Assembly (NCBI GenBank): GCA_021297855.1
Contig: JAJTHM010000021.1
Location: forward strand, 1 to 38,822
Length of the DNA stretch: 38,822 nt
Direction of reading: 5' to 3'
From: Sphingobacteriales bacterium
GTDB taxonomy: Bacteria > Bacteroidota > Bacteroidia > Chitinophagales > JADJOU01
A program made the position numbers and the translations under genes. The notes beneath the pieces are model-generated. The model did not search any database. It was not told the DNA's origin and was given only the letters and a program-made list of their open reading frames with translations. Position 1 is the first letter of the stretch, and every line of letters begins with the position of its first letter. Below, one piece after another: positions 1,512 through 38,239 of this stretch.

Positions 1512-4500
1512 CTATTTTAATATCGTAATATTCCCCTTCTTAGTCATATTGGCTCCACCTATGCACTCTACATAGAGATGATAAGCAAATACACCAGGCT
1601 CTAACTCTATTCCTTTATAAGTGCCATCCCACCCTTTTTTCTGATTGGTACTTTCAAAGACAAGCTGCCCCCACCGATCATAAATCATGAATTGCATTTT
1701 TTGGATATTATCTCCCATCACATAGAGGGCATCATTTTTTCCATCCTTGTTGGGAGTGAATCCTGTAGGGACATATACTTCTGGGTCATCGCAAACTTCA
1801 TAATATACAGTGACTACGACAGAGTCCCCGCTCCGGCATCCTAGCGGATCTCTCACCTCTACATAGTAGGTGGTCGTCGTATCAGGTGAGGCTTCTGGAC
1901 TAGGGATAAACTTATTGTCCAAAGTCCTGGATGGCGACCATAAATAGCCGACGACATTTGAAGCACTCGCTTGTAAAATCGTTTTCGAACCGTATTCTAT
2001 TTTATCAGGATTGGCAGTGACACTCAGGTCATCTAAATATCTGCTATAATCTACTTTAATGGAGTCTCTATATTGACATTTAGTAAAAAGACTACTCAAT
2101 GCTACGCATCGAATAAGTGCGGAATCAACAATCTTATAACTGACAATGTTCTTGTTATTAGCAATCCAATTCGTCGGATTCCAATTGTAGGTGAAGGTAG
2201 GATTAAAATTAGCATTGAGAGTTAAGGTATCTCCTTTGCATACTAGTTTATTCCCTGCAATTTTTAAGAACAAAGTATCTTTTCTCATAGCGATGCTATC
2301 TATCACAGAACATCCTATTCCGCGATTCAAGTTTGCATTGATATAAAATTTTGTATCCTGATTTATCCAAGCTCTAATTTTATTTGTCCCTTGACCAGTC
2401 AAAATGGGTTGTGATGGAGCCCATTGATAGGTTACCTTTGATAGGTTGGGTACTTCTAATTTCACTGTATCAAATTTGCAGACAATCGAATCTCGCGATA
2501 GAAATTTAAAAATAGATGCATTGAAAATTTGAATTCGCAAGGAATCATTTAATCTACAATTATTCGAATCTATTACCGTGAGTCTGTATGTGGTAGGTTG
2601 TGTTATAGTCACTATCGTTTTATTGGTATTGGCTCCTGTTGACCATTGATAGCTGGCTCCATTCAATTGTGTGGCATTGAGCGAGACCGTATCGCCTGCG
2701 CAGACCACGGTATCGGCCCATAGTTTTAAATTAGGGTTTCCCACAAAAACGAAATGTGTATCTACAGCAGTACATTGATTCTTAAATCGGGCAGTAACAA
2801 AATAATTTCTACTGACATCGGTTTTAAATACAGCCGTATTGAGAAGAGAATTGAAAAGGGCATTGATAGGTCCCCAGACATAAGACGTATTAGGAATCAA
2901 ACTTGCCGATAGACTCACAAAACTATCTTTGCAGTTGCTGAGGGGGCCTTGAATTTGGATGAGGTTTTCAAATAAACGAACCCTAGCCGTGTCTCTATAC
3001 ATACAAGCTGGTCTGGAGATGAGTGTCGCTTGAATATAAATACTACTATCATTGCTAAACGGCCCAAATCGCGCAGGACTGACCCCTTGCGTGGTCTGTA
3101 ATAGAGCATTTGGATTCCAAATGAGTGCCCACCTAGAGTTTAAGTTTGCAATGACATCTACACTCTGCCCTCTGCATGTTATGGTATCGGGGTTCCAATT
3201 TACAGCGTCCTGTAATAGTTTAAAAGAAATTGTTTTGTTCGCGTAGCAGGCATTATTAACCCTATATTCAATATGGATGGTTCGGGTGGTATCTACTCGA
3301 AATTGGGCCGAGGTTGCATTTTGAGAAATGATATTCGAACTAGGATTAAACGTATATTGGCCTCCTAATAAATTAGATGAATAATTTATCGTTAAAATCT
3401 CATCCTTACAACCAATTGAATCCATCTGCAAGTTTAGAGCGGCATTGACTACTTGGACTTGCATACTATCATGCGAAATGCAATTAAAATCTGAGACATA
3501 GCTTAATTTCACCTTGGTATTGGTATTGATAATTAATCTAGCGCTATCTCTATTTTGAAATGCAATCAGATTAAATGGTTCCCATTGATAAATTCCATTG
3601 GGATAGTTTGTACCTATAAATAATGCGTCCTCTAACTTACAAACAACACTTGGACCATTTATAGATAAAGGTTTAGGAGTGTCTATGAGGACTGTTTGCT
3701 CTAGAGTATCGGTACACCCATTTTTTGTGAGATAAGCTCTAAACGTGGTTTGTGTATTTACTTTTACCTTAGGAGAAAAAGTAGTACTCCCAGACATTTG
3801 ACTATTCGGGGTCCAGGAAATAGTGGCACCTGGATCAATAATTCCCCTTAGACCTATGATAATAGAGTCGCCCTTACAACTTTTGACGGGAGGTAGAGTA
3901 GTAAAAGCGTTGTTTAGAATATAAATTGATTTCCTAATCGTGTCCGTTTTGTTACATGATGAATTATCATTAATGATTAGAGTCACATTTTGCAAACCAT
4001 AGCTTGTAAAAGTAAAACTTGGATTGGTTTGCGTAGAGGTTCCTTGACCATTAAAGTTCCACAAATAATTAGGACTTGCCGATACAGCTCTCGAAGTGTT
4101 CGTAAAGTTTATTGATAAATTTTGACAATTGGTGTTGGCTGTAAAATCAGCTTTGGCAGTTTGAGAAGTATCTAAATGCCGCACATAGAACGAATCGAAG
4201 ATATAACATTTTTGGGTATCTTGAATATGTACATAAAAATATTGTGATTGGCTCGGTTTGGCTTTTATTTTAGCCGTATCCACCTTGCCTATTATGGGCG
4301 GGAAGGGTGTCCATTGATAGGTAGCGCCATTCATCTGGGTAGCTTGAATGTATGAAGTATCACCAGGACAAATCACGGAATCTCCGGTTATTTTTATTAA
4401 ATCATTCACAATGCGAATACGAATCGAATCCGTTTCTACGCAGTTATTATCGACTACCGTCATGCGATAAAATCCAGTTTGTGGAACCCTAAATGTAGCT

Positions 4501-7500
4501 GTTGTATCCGTTTGATTGAGAAGAAGAGAAGCGGGACTCCATTGCACATTAGCGCCTTTAGAACTGCTGTGACGAATCGTCACAAGACTGTCTTTGCATT
4601 TTAAGGTATCCGCAGTCAAATTCATAAATAAATCAATGAATTTTACCAAAGCAGAATCCTTAAATTGACAATAACTTTTAAGATTATGCGTAGCTTCAAT
4701 ATATACTTTTCTATTGGTATTGCTAAAATTAAAGCGCGCAGGGCTGGTGCTTTGAGGTGTGACTAAAGTCGCAGCTGGTTGCCACAATATCGTATAGTTT
4801 AGATGCGTTGCGGCAGTAGCTACTATTTCTTCATTCCAGCAGACGATGCTATCCACCTGCCAATTTACCTGATCCTTTAACAACTTGAAGCGAATCGTAT
4901 CACGGGCAATGCAGTTGGTTGAAATTGTTTTTGTCGCTATGAGACTAAAGGTGGTATCTAGTATAAATCTCGTGGTATCGCCATTTTGAAATAGTGGGCT
5001 TATAGAAGGAGAAAAACTAAGAGTACCCCCTTGAAAATTTGATTTCGCCAATAAAGTGATAACATCTCCTTTGCAACCTATTGTATCTGCTTCTATAGTT
5101 AAGGTCGGTGTGCCGGCTACAATCGTCTTTTTGGTAGTGGAAATACAACCATAAATACTCGTATAGTTTACTGTGATATCCAGGGGTAATGTTGTAAAAG
5201 TAAATTCAGCAGTGTCTCTATTTGATTTCGTTAAAACACTTTTTGGCAACCAATCATAATTGCCTTGAGAATAGAGATTCGTGGTGAATAAAGTTTTAGC
5301 TCCTACACAAGAAATGTTGTCTCCTACTATGATGAGATTCTTAGGGGTATCTACGATCACTCTCTGGTAAAAGGTATCCGTGCAACCTGTCTTTTTAATA
5401 ATAAGACGATATTGGGTGGTATTCGATGGGGAAGCAAACGGGGACAGGATACTGGTATCGTCAATGCTTGAAGTGGGTGTCCAAGTAAAGGTCATACCTG
5501 TATCCTTAATATTCGTGAAGCCTATTCTCACAGAACTACCTGCACAGATAGTTTTATCGGATAACGTATCTGAAGTAGTTCCTAAAACCACTATAGTTTT
5601 AAAGATTGTATCTGCAATATTACAGGAAGTGGTATCTCTGACAATCAATCTAGCAGAATAGAGCCCTGGATTTGTGAAGGTTATTGTTGGTTCTTTGACT
5701 GAGGATGTGGCCCCATTGCTAAATAGCCAGAAAAATTGAGTATTGGTACTGACTGTATGGCTGAAGTTATTCATCTTGATATTCGCCGGAGCACAGGCTG
5801 GGGTGTAGGTGAAATCTGCTTTCACCGGAAGCCCGAAGTCGAATTTGAAAACGCCAAGGTTGCAATTGCTGCTATTGTTTGTAGGGCCCACTACAGAAGC
5901 TGCATTTGGATATATTGGGAAATTTTGTTGTCCACCACAGCCAGCGCACACGGCATGATAGACAATCCCATTTTTGTCAAACCTGCTGGTTCCGCCATCC
6001 ACATGTTCTTCTGATAAAGCAGTAGTTCCGCCGAAAAAGCTGCCATAATACAAGGCACTCAAATCCCCTTCCAATATCATCATATAAAATCCATTGCCAA
6101 GAGTGGTGGATTGAAAAGCATTTGAAGTCACTGGTAAACCAGATGTATTTAGAGAAAAAGTATTAAAGGATCCAAGATTACTACCCCATCCAGTGATGAA
6201 TATTTTATCACAATAGTCCACCAAAAAGGCTGTGGGAGATATGTCTGGGTTTTGATTTCCTCTGCCAAACATGGTAGAGCGAAGTTTAGCGCTCACAGTC
6301 GGATTTAAAACAGATACAAATTGACCTGTATGTGGAATTGAATAAGCAGCACTTACTAAAAAATAATTCGTACTACTATGGGTCGTCTGCCCTAGCACAT
6401 AAACTTTGCTACTGTCGCCAGATTCTACAAAATAGATTTGATCATAATCTGAAGTTCCGTAATAGGTTGCATAGCGCAGCGAGGTCAAATTGTTATTGAG
6501 CGATACAACCATGCCATCGGTACCTCCACTATAGGTTCCATTGACTACCCCGCTCGTAGCGCCTATGTTAGAAGAAGCTGTTCCTCCAGCGGCTATAATG
6601 TTTCCTGCCTTATCAAAACATAAGTCATATAGCGCATCGTCTCCCGATCCTCCTATGTAGGTAAAGCTAAGTAAGGTTGTCAGATTGGTATTAAATTTAG
6701 CTAGAATACCATCGTAGCTGCCAGAGTTAGTCGTTTTAAAGCCCCCAGTCACGGTAGGTAAATTATTTGAATTGGATAGCGAGGCTAAATAGATATTCCC
6801 CAAAGTGTCTGTTTCTATTTCTCCGCGAATACCATCGCCATAGTTTTTCACCAAGTCGGTGCTAATTCCTACTCCATCTGTACTAGAGCCTCCAAAGTAT
6901 GAAGAGCCGACAAGTCCTGTTCCTGTGGGATTAAATTTTGTAATGGCTATGTCCGCACCATTTGGATATGAAATACCTAGCCCATTCAAAGAAGGTATGC
7001 CAGAAAGTGCGGGTCCTCCTGCATGTGTTCTTCGAAAGGCACCTACTGTGGTTGGGAAATTTGTAGAACTTGTCGTAGAAAGCAAAATGAGCCTATTATT
7101 TTGGTCCACGACAAGGCTATGAGGCACATCAAAACTAGTGCCACCAATATAAGTAGAATAAACTCGTGCATTACCCGTAGGGGTAAATTTTGTAATTCCA
7201 ATATCGGATTGACCACCAAAGGTGGTCTGATAGGCACCCATTGTCGTTGGGTAGCCAGCAGCGAAAACCAAGCCTGTTCCGTATAGGTGACCAGCAAAAT
7301 CATAGGTGGCCGACGCTCCAAAATTGTCTCCAGTAGAACCGCTATACGAACTAAAAATAATTTGAGGATCGATTTCTAATACTTGACTTCCAATGATTTC
7401 CTTTATATCTACCTGAAAGCTCAATACATTGTTTTCGAGAATAAAATTACTGCTGATGTCTCTTATCTGACCTTCTTGATGCAGAAAGGTAATTGGTTTT

Positions 7501-8150
7501 TCATCTACAACATCGCCGAGGACAGTCGTTGAAACTAAATCACCTTTGGTATTGAGATATAAATTGGCAAGACCATTAAATTTCATTTTTATATCACTCA
7601 CTTTGGCTCCAGCGCGGAGGTAAAAGGTGTATTTGGGTTGAAAATATTTAGAACTGATCACTAAATCAATGTGAGGATAAATATCTTTGTACCGGACATC
7701 TTCAAATCCATGACAACCTCCTTTCCACTGTGATGGGTCTTCTCCAAGGAAATAATTGAAATACTCTTCAAATTTCTTCTCAGGGTAGATTTGTGGATTA
7801 GGATGACTATTTAAAAATTCTATATTGTACGCATGGGCATTGCAGGGTTTGCTGAAATCAAAGCTAGAATCAAACTTATGACTATTATTTTCCGCTACAT
7901 TTACTGTGATTTTATTGTTCTCAAGGTATATAGCCCCATTTTTAATATTTGTCTTAAACCGCACATTTTGATGCCATTGACCTTTATTTTCTATATAAAT
8001 TAGCTTACTCGATGAGCCATTGTGTGCGAATGCCTGCAATTGATAGATAAGTGTGAAAAGAAAAACATGGAATATTCTCACGAATATGTTTTGTCGTTTA
8101 GAAATATTATTCACACAAATATAGGCAATTACGAGTAAAACTCCAAGCAT
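1512..8150 (-). CDS. Giant T9SS type B secreted protein (SBBP propeller, PKD, Ig-like modules)
   Basis: Secreted or cell-surface protein of 2212 residues. A hydrophobic export segment lies near residues 24-42. Residues about 48-270 match the N-terminal domain (ENKGQWHQNV opening) that precedes SBBP repeats in Bacteroidota surface proteins. Residues about 270-775 are SBBP-type beta-propeller repeats (for example YSTYIGGTSFDVPHSLVVD). Two PKD domains start near 778 and 1334, each followed by short Ig-like modules opening with a CxGDxxxL-like motif (14 counted). The last ~95 residues (from about 2118) are the gliding-motility C-terminal domain, with VPTGFTPNKDGKNDALYV and IYDRWGQLVFES, the type B sorting signal for T9SS. 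The PKD-plus-six-module block is duplicated with a 556-residue period. The PorP/SprF-like gene follows directly. Likely an adhesin or filament; ligand unknown. The ATG start puts about 23 residues before the hydrophobic segment, so the start could be slightly different. Confidence 0.93.
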   Translation of the reverse strand: MLGVLLVIAYICVNNISKRQNIFVRIFHVFLFTLIYQLQAFAHNGSSSKLIYIENKGQWHQNVRFKTNIKNGAIYLENNKITVNVAENNSHKFDSSFDFSKPCNAHAYNIEFLNSHPNPQIYPEKKFEEYFNYFLGEDPSQWKGGCHGFEDVRYKDIYPHIDLVISSKYFQPKYTFYLRAGAKVSDIKMKFNGLANLYLNTKGDLVSTTVLGDVVDEKPITFLHQEGQIRDISSNFILENNVLSFQVDIKEIIGSQVLEIDPQIIFSSYSGSTGDNFGASATYDFAGHLYGTGLVFAAGYPTTMGAYQTTFGGQSDIGITKFTPTGNARVYSTYIGGTSFDVPHSLVVDQNNRLILLSTTSSTNFPTTVGAFRRTHAGGPALSGIPSLNGLGISYPNGADIAITKFNPTGTGLVGSSYFGGSSTDGVGISTDLVKNYGDGIRGEIETDTLGNIYLASLSNSNNLPTVTGGFKTTNSGSYDGILAKFNTNLTTLLSFTYIGGSGDDALYDLCFDKAGNIIAAGGTASSNIGATSGVVNGTYSGGTDGMVVSLNNNLTSLRYATYYGTSDYDQIYFVESGDSSKVYVLGQTTHSSTNYFLVSAAYSIPHTGQFVSVLNPTVSAKLRSTMFGRGNQNPDISPTAFLVDYCDKIFITGWGSNLGSFNTFSLNTSGLPVTSNAFQSTTLGNGFYMMILEGDLSALYYGSFFGGTTALSEEHVDGGTSRFDKNGIVYHAVCAGCGGQQNFPIYPNAASVVGPTNNSSNCNLGVFKFDFGLPVKADFTYTPACAPANIKMNNFSHTVSTNTQFFWLFSNGATSSVKEPTITFTNPGLYSARLIVRDTTSCNIADTIFKTIVVLGTTSDTLSDKTICAGSSVRIGFTNIKDTGMTFTWTPTSSIDDTSILSPFASPSNTTQYRLIIKKTGCTDTFYQRVIVDTPKNLIIVGDNISCVGAKTLFTTNLYSQGNYDWLPKSVLTKSNRDTAEFTFTTLPLDITVNYTSIYGCISTTKKTIVAGTPTLTIEADTIGCKGDVITLLAKSNFQGGTLSFSPSISPLFQNGDTTRFILDTTFSLIATKTISTNCIARDTIRFKLLKDQVNWQVDSIVCWNEEIVATAATHLNYTILWQPAATLVTPQSTSPARFNFSNTNRKVYIEATHNLKSYCQFKDSALVKFIDLFMNLTADTLKCKDSLVTIRHSSSKGANVQWSPASLLLNQTDTTATFRVPQTGFYRMTVVDNNCVETDSIRIRIVNDLIKITGDSVICPGDTSYIQATQMNGATYQWTPFPPIIGKVDTAKIKAKPSQSQYFYVHIQDTQKCYIFDSFYVRHLDTSQTAKADFTANTNCQNLSINFTNTSRAVSASPNYLWNFNGQGTSTQTNPSFTFTSYGLQNVTLIINDNSSCNKTDTIRKSIYILNNAFTTLPPVKSCKGDSIIIGLRGIIDPGATISWTPNSQMSGSTTFSPKVKVNTQTTFRAYLTKNGCTDTLEQTVLIDTPKPLSINGPSVVCKLEDALFIGTNYPNGIYQWEPFNLIAFQNRDSARLIINTNTKVKLSYVSDFNCISHDSMQVQVVNAALNLQMDSIGCKDEILTINYSSNLLGGQYTFNPSSNIISQNATSAQFRVDTTRTIHIEYRVNNACYANKTISFKLLQDAVNWNPDTITCRGQSVDVIANLNSRWALIWNPNALLQTTQGVSPARFGPFSNDSSIYIQATLISRPACMYRDTARVRLFENLIQIQGPLSNCKDSFVSLSASLIPNTSYVWGPINALFNSLLNTAVFKTDVSRNYFVTARFKNQCTAVDTHFVFVGNPNLKLWADTVVCAGDTVSLNATQLNGASYQWSTGANTNKTIVTITQPTTYRLTVIDSNNCRLNDSLRIQIFNASIFKFLSRDSIVCKFDTVKLEVPNLSKVTYQWAPSQPILTGQGTNKIRAWINQDTKFYINANLNRGIGCSVIDSIAMRKDTLFLKIAGNKLVCKGDTLTLNANFNPTFTYNWNPTNWIANNKNIVSYKIVDSALIRCVALSSLFTKCQYRDSIKVDYSRYLDDLSVTANPDKIEYGSKTILQASASNVVGYLWSPSRTLDNKFIPSPEASPDTTTTYYVEVRDPLGCRSGDSVVVTVYYEVCDDPEVYVPTGFTPNKDGKNDALYVMGDNIQKMQFMIYDRWGQLVFESTNQKKGWDGTYKGIELEPGVFAYHLYVECIGGANMTKKGNITILK

Positions 8151-33718: not shown

Positions 33719-34072
33719 TTAACAACTCGTATTCGGATTCGCATAATTATCGCTCTGGTCTTCATCTGTATGATCTAGACAGACGAAATCTTTTTCAATT
33801 AATAAATTTAGTTTCCCGAAACTATTTTTATACGTAATCTTATCTGTATCATTCCAGATTTTAGCTTCTTGGCTTGGAATGAAAAGCGTTATTTTATCAC
33901 CAACAAATTGTGCTTGAAGTTCCTCGATTCCTTCTTTAGATTCTAAGCGATAGATGAAGTCTTTTTCGGAAAATTCGGTCTTTTCTTCCACCCATCCGAG
34001 TTCAGATAATTGCTTAACTTCCTTTTTTACCAGACGGAAGCGAACTGTGTTGTCTTTAATTCTAATTTTCAT
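33719..34072 (-). CDS. Small protein, DUF7009-like
   Basis: A 117-residue soluble protein. It opens with MKIRIKDNTVRFRLVKKEV, then LSELGWVEEKTEF, and ends with CLDHTDEDQSDNYANPNTSC, a pattern I recognise from small uncharacterised Bacteroidota proteins of the DUF7009 type (beta-rich N-terminus, acidic 'LD...EDQ.D.Y.NP' tail). Function unknown. It stands downstream of fdhD on the same strand, separated by 216 bases of AT-rich DNA with two small palindromes, so it may belong to the molybdenum-linked set or stand alone. The two tail cysteines could bind metal, but this is a guess. Confidence 0.7.
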   Translation of the reverse strand: MKIRIKDNTVRFRLVKKEVKQLSELGWVEEKTEFSEKDFIYRLESKEGIEELQAQFVGDKITLFIPSQEAKIWNDTDKITYKNSFGKLNLLIEKDFVCLDHTDEDQSDNYANPNTSC

Positions 34073-34288: not shown

Positions 34289-35095
34289 TTAAATTTTTCC
34301 AGTATATACATTAAACGAATCATTTTTTAAAAACCCAATCAAGGTAATGCCAAACTCATCAGCTAATTCTACAGCCAAAGATGAAGGCGCACCTATAGCA
34401 CAGACGACAGGTATTTTAGCCATTATGGCTTTTTGTATTAACTCAAAACTAGCCCTGCCACTGAGTAGTAGAATCATGTCTTCAAAGTCTAGCTTGTCAT
34501 CTACAAAATGATGACCAATGAGTTTATCCAGTGCGTTATGACGACCGACATCTTCGTACAGCGAGATTAAATTACCTTCCATATCAAAAAGTGCTGAAGC
34601 ATGAATGCCTCCAGTTTGACTAAAATTGGATTGATGTTGATTAATCTTATCTTTTAATGTAAGCAGCAAGGCAGGAGAAATCTTGGTCTTTATTATTGCT
34701 TTGGTACCAGAAACTATAGTGCGAATGGCATCAATAGAAGACTTGCCACAGACACCACAGCTACTCGTTGTATAGAAGTTGCGCTTTAGTTTTTCTAGGT
34801 CTATGCTTGCACCTTCTTTTAGGTGAATGGTAATTTGATTATCTATAAAGGAAGTCGTTTTTTCTAATTGTTCAAGACTAGTCATAATGCCTTCCGTATA
34901 TAAAAATCCTAGAGCCAGCTCTTTATCAAAGTCAGGTGTGCGCATCGTGATTGAAATCGATTGACGTTTTTTTTCTCCATTTTCAAAATACTGCAAGCTG
35001 ATTTCTAATGGTTCCTCCACTGCCAAGACATCTTCTTTTTCTTGAAGCTGACCTTGCTTGAATTTAGTGATGGAAACATTTTTAATAGAAGTCAT
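34289..35095 (-). CDS. fdhD: Formate dehydrogenase accessory sulfurtransferase FdhD
   Basis: FdhD passes sulfur from the cysteine desulfurase IscS to the molybdenum (bis-MGD) cofactor of formate dehydrogenases. 268 residues, normal length. The sulfur-carrying CxxC loop is SSCGVCGKSS (Cys113 and Cys116). Other family marks are MRTPDFDKELALGFLYTEGI, YEDVGRHNALDKLIGHH and the cofactor-binding end LLSGRASFELIQKAIMAKIP and CAIGAPSSLAVELADEFGIT. It implies a molybdenum or tungsten formate dehydrogenase elsewhere in the genome. It lies 71 bases after mobA on the same strand, so both probably serve one cofactor pathway. Confidence 0.95.
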   Translation of the reverse strand: MTSIKNVSITKFKQGQLQEKEDVLAVEEPLEISLQYFENGEKKRQSISITMRTPDFDKELALGFLYTEGIMTSLEQLEKTTSFIDNQITIHLKEGASIDLEKLKRNFYTTSSCGVCGKSSIDAIRTIVSGTKAIIKTKISPALLLTLKDKINQHQSNFSQTGGIHASALFDMEGNLISLYEDVGRHNALDKLIGHHFVDDKLDFEDMILLLSGRASFELIQKAIMAKIPVVCAIGAPSSLAVELADEFGITLIGFLKNDSFNVYTGKI

Positions 35096-35166: not shown

Positions 35167-35694
35167 TCATGGCTGCTCAGGATAATCAATACTTTTTATA
35201 ACCTCAAGATTCTTAGGAATAACTTTAGTGACCAAGCTCTTTCTCAATATGGTCTGGAGGGAATTGGTTCCTGTAGATATTTCTGACATTAGAGTTTCTT
35301 TAAACGTTTGTTTGTAAAGTGCCAGAAATGGCTCGAAAAAACCAGTTACTGGATTAAAATAAACATTTGCCAAGGTGTCTGTGGGTTCAATCAATTTTAA
35401 AATATGTTCTTTTGAAAACAATGGGTAATCAATAGCGATCACTAACCAGTCATTATCTTCATATTCAAATGCAGAGATGATACCAGCTATAGGCCCGAGT
35501 GCTTCTAATTCTGGAGAATCGATTAGCGTAGGTAAAGAATATTTATTTTCTTTTGATGAGATAAAAACTTGATCACAATAGTTCTCTAGTAACTTATATA
35601 TATGCAAAAATTGGGGTTGACCGTGATAATCTATCAAGGCTTTATCCTTCCCCATTCTTGTGGATTGACCTCCAGCTAAAACTAATCCGTTCAT
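35167..35694 (-). CDS. mobA: Molybdenum cofactor guanylyltransferase MobA
   Basis: MobA attaches GMP to molybdopterin to make the guanine dinucleotide cofactor used by formate dehydrogenases and related enzymes. 175 residues. The nucleotidyltransferase signature is LAGGQSTRMGKDKALIDYHG (about 5-24), followed by DSPELEALGPIAGIISAFEY and the metal-site strand VIAIDYPLFS, where the usual CDMP/CDxP reads AIDYP, so the Asp is kept. The rest is shorter than in E. coli MobA, as in many Bacteroidota. Its start overlaps the end of the P-loop NTPase gene by 4 bases, giving a coupled pair that could replace a MobA/MobB set. Confidence 0.9.
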   Translation of the reverse strand: MNGLVLAGGQSTRMGKDKALIDYHGQPQFLHIYKLLENYCDQVFISSKENKYSLPTLIDSPELEALGPIAGIISAFEYEDNDWLVIAIDYPLFSKEHILKLIEPTDTLANVYFNPVTGFFEPFLALYKQTFKETLMSEISTGTNSLQTILRKSLVTKVIPKNLEVIKSIDYPEQP

Positions 35695-36197
35695 TCTTCT
35701 AGAAATTTCTCGATAAATAGTTCTAAGGATAAAACCGCTGCCTCTTCGAGCTTGTATTTTTCTATAGCGGCTGCTAGTAGCGTATTTCTTATAACGATAA
35801 TCAAAAGCTTGTTGTTGGACTCTAGTTTAAATTTTTCAATAAACTCTCCTAACTCGGGTTCGAAGCCCCTTCCGTCCATTTCCAATTTACCTAATTCATC
35901 TATGATGATAAGACTAGCCGAGGTTTTATGCAAAGATTTAAATTTTTGCTTTGCAGCTTCAAACGTGGATTTAGAAAATTTAAATCGGCCGATTTCAATG
36001 GAATCCAAATGATTTCCTCCTTCTAGTTCGAAAGGAAGTTCTTCGTCGGTATCTAAAAATATTAGTTTGCGCGATTCATCAATTTCTGGTGTAATGAAGC
36101 CATCGAAGCTAGTCAATCCGCTTTCCCAGAATTCCATGAGAGCGGTCGTTTTTCCACTTTGGATTGGTGCTGAAAGAATAAAAATGTTATGACTCAT
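35691..36197 (-). CDS. P-loop NTPase next to mobA (THEP1/MobB-like)
   Basis: A 168-residue P-loop nucleotide-binding protein. Walker A is APIQSGKTT (10-18) and Walker B is SLIIIDELGKLEMDGRGFEP (Asp100, Glu101). This compact layout with a DE(L/I)GxxE after strand 3 is typical of the THEP1/DUF2478-type nucleoside triphosphatases. MobB, which binds GTP near MobA, is also a small P-loop protein, so a MobB-like helper role is plausible from context. It overlaps mobA by 4 bases and the membrane protein gene by 11 bases. GTP or ATP choice cannot be read. Confidence 0.8.
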   Translation of the reverse strand: MSHNIFILSAPIQSGKTTALMEFWESGLTSFDGFITPEIDESRKLIFLDTDEELPFELEGGNHLDSIEIGRFKFSKSTFEAAKQKFKSLHKTSASLIIIDELGKLEMDGRGFEPELGEFIEKFKLESNNKLLIIVIRNTLLAAAIEKYKLEEAAVLSLELFIEKFLEE

Positions 36198-37170
36198 TGC
36201 GCGAATGGAATACGTTTAGATAGATACTATAATAAATAAAATTGCGGATTTTAGAAAACCCTTTTTCTTTCTGCGCAAGGTCAAAACTTATGAAAAAATT
36301 CTCTTTGATTTGAGGCATAAAGGATAGGGAATGAAGGAAAGAAGATTCATTTTTCTTCATAAAATAGTTTAATATCAAACCTAGTATATATGGTAAAATA
36401 AAGGCTAATAAGATGAACCAAACGATAGCTTTAACTGCATAAATAGTCCAGTGTACTTTGGCCGAAGAAAAATAGATAAAGAGAAAAAAGAAAATAAAAG
36501 AAAATACCAGAATAGATAAGAGAATTTTTTTGTGATTTCTAGCCCTAGCAATAGTTGTGCTATTTGAAGTATGCATCATTGGCATCTCCAATTTGAAACT
36601 TTCAATATTTTGGAGAAATGAACTAGTCCAGTTACCAATCATCATTCCCCAAACACCATAAATAGAGAAATATAAAATAGTCATTCCTGTCAAGAAGTTT
36701 TCTGTGTTTTGAATATTCTTAAAAAATTTATTTACAGTTAGCAGAATGCCTTGTATTAATTCATCTCCAAATATTAAATAAGCCATAAAGGGTTTCTGAA
36801 TCGCATTCTCCATCATCACAATAATAGCATATAAAAGAATAGACCATTTCCTGATACCTGTTAAAGAAAAAATAAGTACAGCCAATATTCCTTGAAAACC
36901 AACTGCAACGTACGCTCCAACTGGACTATGAGGACTTAAGGCAAACTTACATAAAAGTACTAAGCCAAGACTGCTGAGCATAAGTCGGCTGTTTATCTTT
37001 GAGTAAGCAGCAATAAATACGTTGATAATAACTGAAATGCCTCCTACGACGAAGCCCGTCATAGGTATATGCAAAAGGTGCATAATGCCTCCCAGGCCAC
37101 CTTCTGTAAATGCCCATAAATAGGTGAGTCGAAGGATGATTTCTTTATTCTTAGAATAGTCTTCGGCCAT
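36187..37170 (-). CDS. Polytopic membrane protein in the Mo-cofactor operon
   Basis: A 327-residue protein with about eight hydrophobic helices. I do not recognise it firmly. The N-terminal 150 residues resemble small substrate-binding (S) components of ECF-type transporters: LRLTYLWAFTEGGLGGIMHL, PMTGFVVGGISVIINVFIAA, then VGAYVAVGFQGILAVLIFSL. The C-terminal half adds a basic loop (ARARNHKKILLSI) and further helices. It overlaps the NTPase gene by 11 bases and the Coq4-motif gene by 20, so all four genes (Coq4-like, this one, NTPase, mobA) probably form a unit. A transporter or membrane anchor for cofactor precursors or quinones is a hypothesis only. Confidence 0.72.
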   Translation of the reverse strand: MAEDYSKNKEIILRLTYLWAFTEGGLGGIMHLLHIPMTGFVVGGISVIINVFIAAYSKINSRLMLSSLGLVLLCKFALSPHSPVGAYVAVGFQGILAVLIFSLTGIRKWSILLYAIIVMMENAIQKPFMAYLIFGDELIQGILLTVNKFFKNIQNTENFLTGMTILYFSIYGVWGMMIGNWTSSFLQNIESFKLEMPMMHTSNSTTIARARNHKKILLSILVFSFIFFFLFIYFSSAKVHWTIYAVKAIVWFILLAFILPYILGLILNYFMKKNESSFLHSLSFMPQIKENFFISFDLAQKEKGFSKIRNFIYYSIYLNVFHSRNES

Positions 37171-37738
37171 ACATCCAAAAATTATAAACTATGAGTAATG
37201 GGGATAGTATGAAAATAAAAATTTGAAGCATAATACTAAGTAGAATGTGTGATATTAATTTCAAAATTTCTGAAATACTTGGATTGCCTATACTAGGCTG
37301 TTGCTTCAAACCTATTTGTTTTTTCAAGTCGTCAACGGTTGAGTTTTTTAGAGTTTTTTCTTCAATATTTAATTGATAAAGATTCGTAGATCTGCAACCT
37401 AAAAGAAAAGCCTTCGAACTAGGTTTAGCATAAATCAATAAACATGCGATTATGCCAGCAGAGTTTAAGAGGTATGCCGCAAAATAATTCATACACCCTG
37501 AAGCTATCTCCCAAGCGGTTATTTCAAATTCACCCAAAAGCTCACTTTTATAACCCGTCAAGAGATGGTGAATATTATGCTTTAAAACTGCTTTGCGCCT
37601 GTTATCCCAATTAGGGATATATACATTGAATACATTGAAAATTTCATGTGTGACATAGCTTAGGTGATTTCCACCTTCTATGCCTAGATTATAGTCTTGG
37701 TAGAATTTATCTAAATGGTCTGAGATTTTAAATTCCAT
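37151..37738 (-). CDS. Coq4-motif membrane-tail protein
   Basis: A 195-residue protein. It contains HNIHHLLTGYKSELLGE (54-70), which matches the Coq4 metal-binding pattern HDxxHx11E with Asp changed to Asn (His54, His58, Glu70). FEITAWEIASGCMNYFAAYL follows, as in Coq4 'aFe..q' helices. A C-terminal hydrophobic helix (about 168-190) would tether it to the membrane. In eukaryotes and some bacteria Coq4 acts in ubiquinone synthesis; Bacteroidota generally use menaquinone, so this relative should have a different job, perhaps on a quinone or another hydrophobic ring. First gene of the overlapping set ending at mobA. Confidence 0.65.
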   Translation of the reverse strand: MEFKISDHLDKFYQDYNLGIEGGNHLSYVTHEIFNVFNVYIPNWDNRRKAVLKHNIHHLLTGYKSELLGEFEITAWEIASGCMNYFAAYLLNSAGIIACLLIYAKPSSKAFLLGCRSTNLYQLNIEEKTLKNSTVDDLKKQIGLKQQPSIGNPSISEILKLISHILLSIMLQIFIFILSPLLIVYNFWMYGRRLF

Positions 37739-37849: not shown

Positions 37850-38239
37850 TTAAGCATTCACATCCTTGTTTTCGTCCACATACTTACTCGGGCACTTCAT
37901 CAGAATTTGTGTTGCTTTGAAATGACCATTTTCATAATTCCCTGCTACAACTATTTTTTCCGTTTGGTCAAAGCCATCAGGTTTAGTGCCTTTATGTATA
38001 ACCTTAGATTCAACCCCTTTTTCATCCACCATATAGAATTCAAAATGATTCGCATCTTCCTTTGGATTATATACTTGAGGCTTAGATTTATTGAGTCTGC
38101 CTACGATGTGGTATTCTGAAGAAGAATTATCCATGGCTGTATTGAAGTCAGCGTAGGTAGAGTATTCATCACTCTTAGTAAATATAAATCCGATTGCTAC
38201 GGCTATGATGATAAGGGCAATAATATGTATTTTTTTCAT
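37850..38239 (-). CDS. ccmE: CcmE-like cytochrome c haem chaperone (CxxxY type)
   Basis: A 129-residue membrane-anchored protein with one N-terminal helix (2-20) and an OB-fold-like beta barrel (YHIVGRLNKSKPQVYNPKED, HFEFYMVDEK, EKIVVAGNYENGHFKATQIL). It ends in KCPSKYVDE. In CcmE the covalent haem residue is the His of HxxxY; here the motif is CPSKY, i.e. CxxxY (Cys116, Tyr120), as in a known variant of CcmE found in some bacteria and archaea. Haem delivery to c-type cytochromes is the likely role, matching the di-haem peroxidase at 12699-13697. ccmA, B, C or F are not adjacent. Confidence 0.85.
   Translation of the reverse strand: MKKIHIIALIIIAVAIGFIFTKSDEYSTYADFNTAMDNSSSEYHIVGRLNKSKPQVYNPKEDANHFEFYMVDEKGVESKVIHKGTKPDGFDQTEKIVVAGNYENGHFKATQILMKCPSKYVDENKDVNA

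Follow-up and report, generated by a model that had tools for sequence, protein, structure and literature searches.

What brings two proteins of molybdenum cofactor (Moco) maturation, MobA and FdhD, together with a membrane protein, an NTPase and a Coq4-like protein? The question is raised by an operon in the window, the whole stretch of 38,822 nucleotides analyzed here (Sphingobacteriales bacterium, contig JAJTHM010000021.1). A preliminary description of this DNA had noted that the membrane protein and the Coq4-motif protein have no known place in the molybdenum cofactor pathway, and had suggested either a membrane-linked way of handling the cofactor or an electron-carrier link for formate dehydrogenase.

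Gene organization and core set

Four overlapping genes on the minus strand encode the Coq4-like protein (195 aa, 37151..37738), the membrane protein (327 aa, 36187..37170), the NTPase (168 aa, 35691..36197) and a MobA-like molybdenum cofactor guanylyltransferase (175 aa, 35167..35694; PF12804 6.6e-23, LAGGQSTRMGKDKA signature). The overlaps are 20, 11 and 4 bases, as described before. On the same strand, the gene for FdhD, the sulfurtransferase for formate dehydrogenase (34289..35095; PF02634 2.4e-65, TIGR00129 over cut-off, CGVC motif), starts 71 bases past mobA, and is followed by a gene for a DUF7009 protein conserved beside fdhD (33719..34072; PF22668 7.6e-40). The Pfam matches also bear out the earlier naming of MobA and FdhD. 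The MobA-like protein has an NTP transferase domain with LAGGxSxRMGxDKA, a signature that we take to be the mark of MobA; it stays below the NCBIfam MobA equivalog cut-offs.

Upstream of the operon, at 37850-38239, lies the gene of a protein with a CcmE-like heme-chaperone domain (PF03100 3.9e-13), also found in the congeners G001-G003 of the window's genome (G000; G and L numbers denote genomes and loci). DUF7009 also adjoins fdhD in L004-L006, L009, L069, L083 and L084. At the other end of the window, a PorP/SprF protein (300-1505) adjoins a 2212-aa protein (1512-8150) with DUF7948 and PKD domains and a CHU_C type IX secretion signal.

The core of the module is the membrane protein (gene and family called mem below), the THEP1-type NTPase (gene ntp), MobA and FdhD. 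The order mem-ntp-mobA is kept on five of six named Bacteroidota contigs (L004-L007 and L009; L008 stops after ntp), a recurrence that argues against chance, and fdhD and DUF7009 are on the same contig in four of those five (L004-L006, L009).

Coq4 does not belong to this core. No Coq4 match was found on the six named mem-bearing contigs. In G000 and G002, coq4 sits between ccmE and mem, and G001 and G003 have ccmE, mem, ntp, mobA, fdhD and DUF7009, with mem intact, without it. Since only two of the four congeners have coq4, we regard it as an insertion. As a member of the unit it was rejected, being missing in G001, G003 and all other mem loci with labelled ORFs, and the proposed electron-carrier role for formate dehydrogenase loses its footing, because two congeners carry the whole set without the gene.

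The Coq4 resemblance of the window protein, judged from its sequence, is real but remote. Its segment HNIHHLLTGYKSELLGE fits H[DN]xxHx11E, the zinc motif that we take to be the defining mark of Coq4, and its counterpart in G002 has HDIHH; the motif reported earlier is therefore there. A profile of the window protein and two relatives matched the PDB entry 3msq, a 'putative ubiquinone biosynthesis protein', with E 0.005, and one of the two relatives (L003) passes the cut-off of the Coq4 family PF05019. PF05019 did not match the window or G002 protein at E up to 1. Neither the Coq4-like protein nor the membrane protein has a significant family in Pfam or NCBIfam.

The membrane protein has an S-like and a probable T-like part

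In its AlphaFold model, the first ~195 residues of the membrane protein fold like the S-components of ECF transporters (residues 1-195, 36586..37170, minus strand). The pLDDT is 67-86 for residues 11-130 and 71-84 for residues 161-190, with lower values between these blocks, and the model is poor beyond residue ~190, that is, over the T-like part. In a VIA-align comparison the best eight chains were all ECF S-components, with Z values of 8.0-11.8, which helical bundles can reach through their common arrangement alone; the next row, with Z 7.6, consisted of NosDFY chains. The S-component assignment is based on all eight top rows being of one kind, and not on the Z values. Among the eight were 5edl (Z 11.8, rmsd 4.9, 169 aligned residues), 4huq_S (Z 11.3, rmsd 4.7, 157 aligned), RibU 5kbw (Z 11.1, rmsd 3.5, 154 aligned), the folate ECF structure 9kym (Z 10.6, rmsd 5.1, 163 aligned) and PanT 6zg3 (Z 8.0, rmsd 5.4, 174 aligned). 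The top PDB match by Foldseek was also the S-component 5edl (E 0.7, probability 0.94). The eight chains confirm the earlier label of the protein as ECF-S-like, and the gene set does look like membrane-linked handling of the cofactor. Residues W19, E23, G27, H31, P36, G39, K75, P80 and Q93 are conserved across 29 mem homologues.

Residues 196-327 (36187..36585, minus strand) are presumably a T-like coupling domain, as a weak profile match suggests. By HHalign, the C-terminal part of long mem proteins matched separately encoded T-like proteins of ~185 aa with probability 75.9 and E 2.3e-5 (reversed control, probability 0.5). CbiQ was weakly touched by two of five such split T-like proteins, with a best E of 0.49. 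More generally, split forms gave weak Pfam matches to ABC_cobalt PF09819, Trep_Strep PF09605 and CbiQ PF02361, all under cut-off. Compared with PDB sequences, the mem and T profiles gave no meaningful match, and the T-like profile no EcfT match.

The NTPase as proposed partner of the membrane protein

The NTPase (35691..36197, minus strand) matches NTPase_1 (PF03266) over cut-off with 2.6e-9, and has a Walker A motif SAPIQSGKTT and a Walker B motif LIIIDELGKLE. Its AlphaFold model (pLDDT 65.5) gave only generic AAA/P-loop matches, with no THEP1 among the best 50 matches listed. In a comparison of the ntp profile with the PDB, the best match was 1ye8 (UPF0334 kinase-like AQ_1292, E 0.0023), which we take to be a THEP1 protein.

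An NTPase adjoins mem, lies within 2.5 kb or is fused to it in 31 of 45 mem loci; none was found in the fetched region of the remaining 14. The NTPase is first of all a partner of the membrane protein, because the two are fused in four loci and because it accompanies mem in loci that yielded no mobA. That the fusions come in two different orders strongly indicates joint action with the membrane protein, of which the NTPase is the proposed energizer. The same observations weaken the earlier idea that it replaces MobB. MobB itself was also dropped as an identity for lack of Pfam support in the window protein; two NTPase relatives have weak matches to MobB PF03205, below cut-off.

Three architectures, a receptor and a riboswitch

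Homologues of the module come in three architectures. In the window type, a long mem protein (S plus T-like part) is usually accompanied by a separate NTPase. In the split type (L066, L067, L068, L085, L086), separate S (198-235 aa) and T-like (about 181-202 aa) proteins are found with a TonB-dependent receptor and an NTPase. The fused type is a single S-T-NTPase (L088, L089) or NTPase-S-T (L087, L090) polypeptide. Pfam domain checks were made on some of the split and fused loci, and confirmed the receptor domains in three split loci.

The Moco riboswitch RF01055 was detected in all five split loci, with 97.1, 70.2, 67.6, 62.0 and 53.1 bits (Rfam gathering score 36). It immediately precedes the S gene, except in L085, where a small CMD gene comes between the two. 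The available text of PMC2408646 connects this RNA, in E. coli, with the production of Moco and the supply of molybdate, and does not name Bacteroidetes. Rfam detected no RF01055 in the other mem loci of the 46 (40 non-split loci and the window), nor in 10 control regions.

In 13 of 45 mem loci (L042, L043, L045, L047-L052, L056, L058, L059, L085), a small CMD/AhpD-like gene has the same orientation as mem and lies at most 34 bases from it; PF02627 was present in the three that were checked.

Profile comparison joins long and short mem proteins across 180 columns with E 7e-19. The split forms share 16-19% identity with the window membrane protein, so that evidence from split loci extends to the window by remote homology. 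The window operon has neither a riboswitch (by Rfam) nor a TonB receptor, which counts against reading it as an importer. The role of this copy is therefore argued from homology, from MobA and FdhD, and from the missing pathway described below.

Cofactor biosynthesis is missing from many mem-bearing genomes

MoaC, MoaA, MoeA, MoaE and ModA are all absent from genome G000, whose completeness is 99.97%. The one Mo oxidoreductase of G000 is a formate dehydrogenase alpha subunit (TIGR01591, 802 bits versus a cut-off of 666) with the active-site motif CARVCHSP, encoded next to a NuoF-like subunit. A molybdoenzyme in a genome lacking MoaA, MoaC and MoeA is the combination by which we recognize Moco salvage. 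Congener G002 also lacks MoaA, MoeA, MoaE and ModA.

Of 395 sampled Bacteroidota genomes, 31 were positive with a mem profile built from eight proteins. Molybdoenzyme users were defined as the 230 genomes in which PF20256 (Mo hydroxylase) was found or PF01568 matched strongly. Among them, mem was found in 15 of 33 without MoaC versus 11 of 197 with MoaC (p 2.5e-8, uncorrected for phylogeny, the species not being independent). These PF01568 counts exclude 42 matches weaker than E 1e-10, which may include non-Mo relatives; with them, p is 7e-7. A wider profile, A4, gained a match in 6 of the 18 remaining MoaC-minus users, versus 1 of 80 MoaC-plus users negative for mem. The MoaC-plus set of 96 consisted of 11 genomes positive with A1 and 85 tested with A4; in that set, the A4 hits of G385 and G206, which reach E about 9e-4 and cover just the C-terminal part, were treated as misses.

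Part of this association is lineage, as the contrast vanishes inside family f37, where mem is present in about 6 of 8 MoaC-plus and 10 of 14 MoaC-minus users (counted by eye). Other observations also count against an importer: 12 MoaC-minus users are still without mem after A4, 11 mem-plus genomes keep MoaC, and no strong molybdoenzyme was found in 5 mem-plus genomes. So do the 14 mem loci without an NTPase, the weakness of the T-like match and the generic P-loop matches of the NTPase model. Three of the 12 mem-negative users (G273, G414, G422) have ModA, and two of these three are less than 90% complete.

In the 32 mem-plus genomes searched, MoaA was found in 11 and MoeA in 13. In a search for metal transporters confined to ModA, this protein was absent or below cut-off in all 32, and it was over cut-off in none of the 20 mem-plus MoaC-minus genomes.

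MoaE (PF02391) was not found in 9 of the 11 mem-plus MoaC-plus genomes (G091, G102, G117, G128, G202, G240, G288, G346, G445), even though MoaA, MoaC and MoeA are present. In these nine, molybdopterin synthase is thus missing or unrecognized.

Molybdoenzymes are frequent neighbors of mem

A molybdoenzyme, mobA, fdhD or MOSC gene was found within ~6 kb in 24 of 45 mem loci, and in 17 of 38 after thinning of close relatives. Some of these matches arise by construction, since the molybdoenzyme queries came partly from mem loci (L055, L063, L067, L085, L086, L088) and the mobA and fdhD queries from the window. With the same queries, two of 40 control regions gave raw hits; these 13-kb regions were picked by hand, at round coordinates, from contigs of mem-plus genomes. 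From their N-termini, rather than from Pfam, we read both control hits as hydrogenase- or NuoG-like ferredoxin domains.

The neighboring enzymes are Nap-, arsenate-, DMSO- and polysulfide-reductase-like, FdhF-like, or members of the xanthine-oxidase family. The names were assigned partly by NCBIfam and partly by reading the sequences; Pfam was used to check 11 of the molybdoenzymes as well as the MOSC protein. The preliminary description took wide occurrence of the Coq4-like and membrane genes without mobA or fdhD as evidence against its proposal. For the membrane gene, occurrence without an adjacent mobA or fdhD is indeed common; on the other hand, mem is then often beside other molybdoenzymes. 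What survives is a link that extends to molybdoenzymes in general rather than stopping at formate dehydrogenase.

An apparently decayed second mem copy, with six internal stops, was seen in G178 (C1:129872-130531); a Mo oxidoreductase match lies ~6.6 kb away, at C1:137163.

A probable cofactor importer and its alternatives

In our best reading, the module is probably an ECF-like system that imports molybdenum or tungsten cofactor and takes the place of its synthesis. We infer transport, its direction, its substrate and its energy source from the combination of S-like part, T-like part and NTPase, from the riboswitch and receptor of the split form, and from users apparently unable to make Moco. 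The substrate would be the finished molybdenum (or tungsten) cofactor, metal-molybdopterin, and the presence of MobA beside mem fits import of a nucleotide-free form. In the cell, MobA would add GMP to the imported cofactor, and FdhD would supply it with sulfur for use by the NAD-linked formate dehydrogenase. Moving the substrate across the outer membrane would, in relatives, be the task of a TonB-dependent receptor, with the Moco riboswitch controlling the operon. The bacterium could thus run molybdoenzymes without making their cofactor. The more detailed version, an importer of the intact Mo/W cofactor made of an ECF-like S-T protein with a THEP1-type NTPase instead of ABC ATPases, the split form adding receptor and riboswitch, is plausible but falls somewhat short of an even chance.

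Bare metal could be the substrate instead, the module being a non-ModABC route for molybdate or tungstate, and unidentified enzymes standing in for the missing cofactor enzymes. The neighbors would be the same, the Moco riboswitch also controls molybdate transporters according to the available text of PMC2408646, and the ModA result in the 32 mem-plus genomes fits. A molybdate or tungstate transporter was in fact an early idea; it lost ground once MoaC, MoaA and MoeA proved absent, as bare metal would be useless to G000 and to most other mem-plus genomes, which lack these enzymes. Given what is established about ECF and TonB systems, an S-component fold and a TonB receptor are also more in keeping with a ligand of vitamin size than with an oxyanion, and we consider metal import rather unlikely. 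Import of a precursor still lacking the metal (cyclic pyranopterin monophosphate or molybdopterin), to be completed in the cell, would explain why G106 and G405 are without MoaA and MoaC yet keep MoeA, the metal-inserting enzyme, and agrees with the lack of MoaE in nine of the 11 mem-plus MoaC-plus genomes. It would call for another metal-insertion enzyme in 18 of the 20 mem-plus MoaC-minus genomes, including G000, where MoeA is absent too, and is about as unlikely as metal import.

It is very unlikely that nothing is imported, and that the membrane protein and NTPase are handling or storage factors on the cytoplasmic side for cofactor from an unrecognized pathway. The adjacency of MobA and FdhD, the existence of MoaC-plus members and the restriction of the outer-membrane receptor to the split form agree with such a role; the S-component fold does not, and neither does the split form, in which a Moco riboswitch heads a gene cluster that includes a TonB-dependent receptor in five of five loci.

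Import of finished cofactor would explain how bacteria can have molybdoenzymes while lacking the pathway for their cofactor. The available text of a survey of about 5,900 genomes counts 305 bacteria with Moco-dependent enzymes and no complete Moco pathway, most of them without known Mo transporters, and leaves the gap to new biosynthesis components or Mo-independent enzymes (PMC6147048). According to the accessible part of a 2022 paper, uptake of exogenous Moco was yet to be examined or observed outside C. elegans (PMC9793310). A Moco importer would bear on both points. A role of some T11SS outer-membrane proteins in taking up molybdopterin is raised as a speculation in the accessible text of PMC12282271. 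In the portions of the literature on Moco or molybdopterin uptake, salvage and transporters available to us, we found no described bacterial system, and an earlier description may exist elsewhere. The module seems to be part of a widespread, undescribed uptake machine for bacteria unable to make Moco. If so, Moco would be an exchangeable 'vitamin', a good shared among microbes in communities, and a non-ABC energizer would be added to the ECF-like architecture.

Comparison with known systems

The NTPase is like MobB in being a small P-loop protein adjoining mobA, but the window NTPase has no PF03205 match. With the THEP1 / NTPase_1 family it shares the PF03266 domain; it differs in being paired or fused with an S-T membrane protein. 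Acquisition of dietary Moco by Caenorhabditis elegans is similar in that Moco from another organism is used, except that this is an animal, in which the accessible text of PMC9793310 gives the transport route as unknown.

Salvage of B12 and thiamine by TonB-dependent receptors under riboswitches, for which cases in Caldithrix are described in the available text of PMC5317091, also combines a cofactor-sensing riboswitch with an outer-membrane receptor. In our module, by contrast, the RNA element is the Moco riboswitch RF01055, and a component other than BtuCD sits in the inner membrane.

The closest comparison is with ECF transporters, which consist of S, T and two ABC ATPases (for example RibU, FolT, PanT and 5edl). 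The S-component fold and the combination of S and T with an NTPase are common to both. They differ in that no known S-component family matches the module significantly, that one polypeptide of the module can hold all parts, and that its linked or fused ATPase is a PF03266 NTPase_1 and not ABC-type. Because of this different ATPase, we regard the module as a variant of the ECF architecture rather than as a member of the ECF family.
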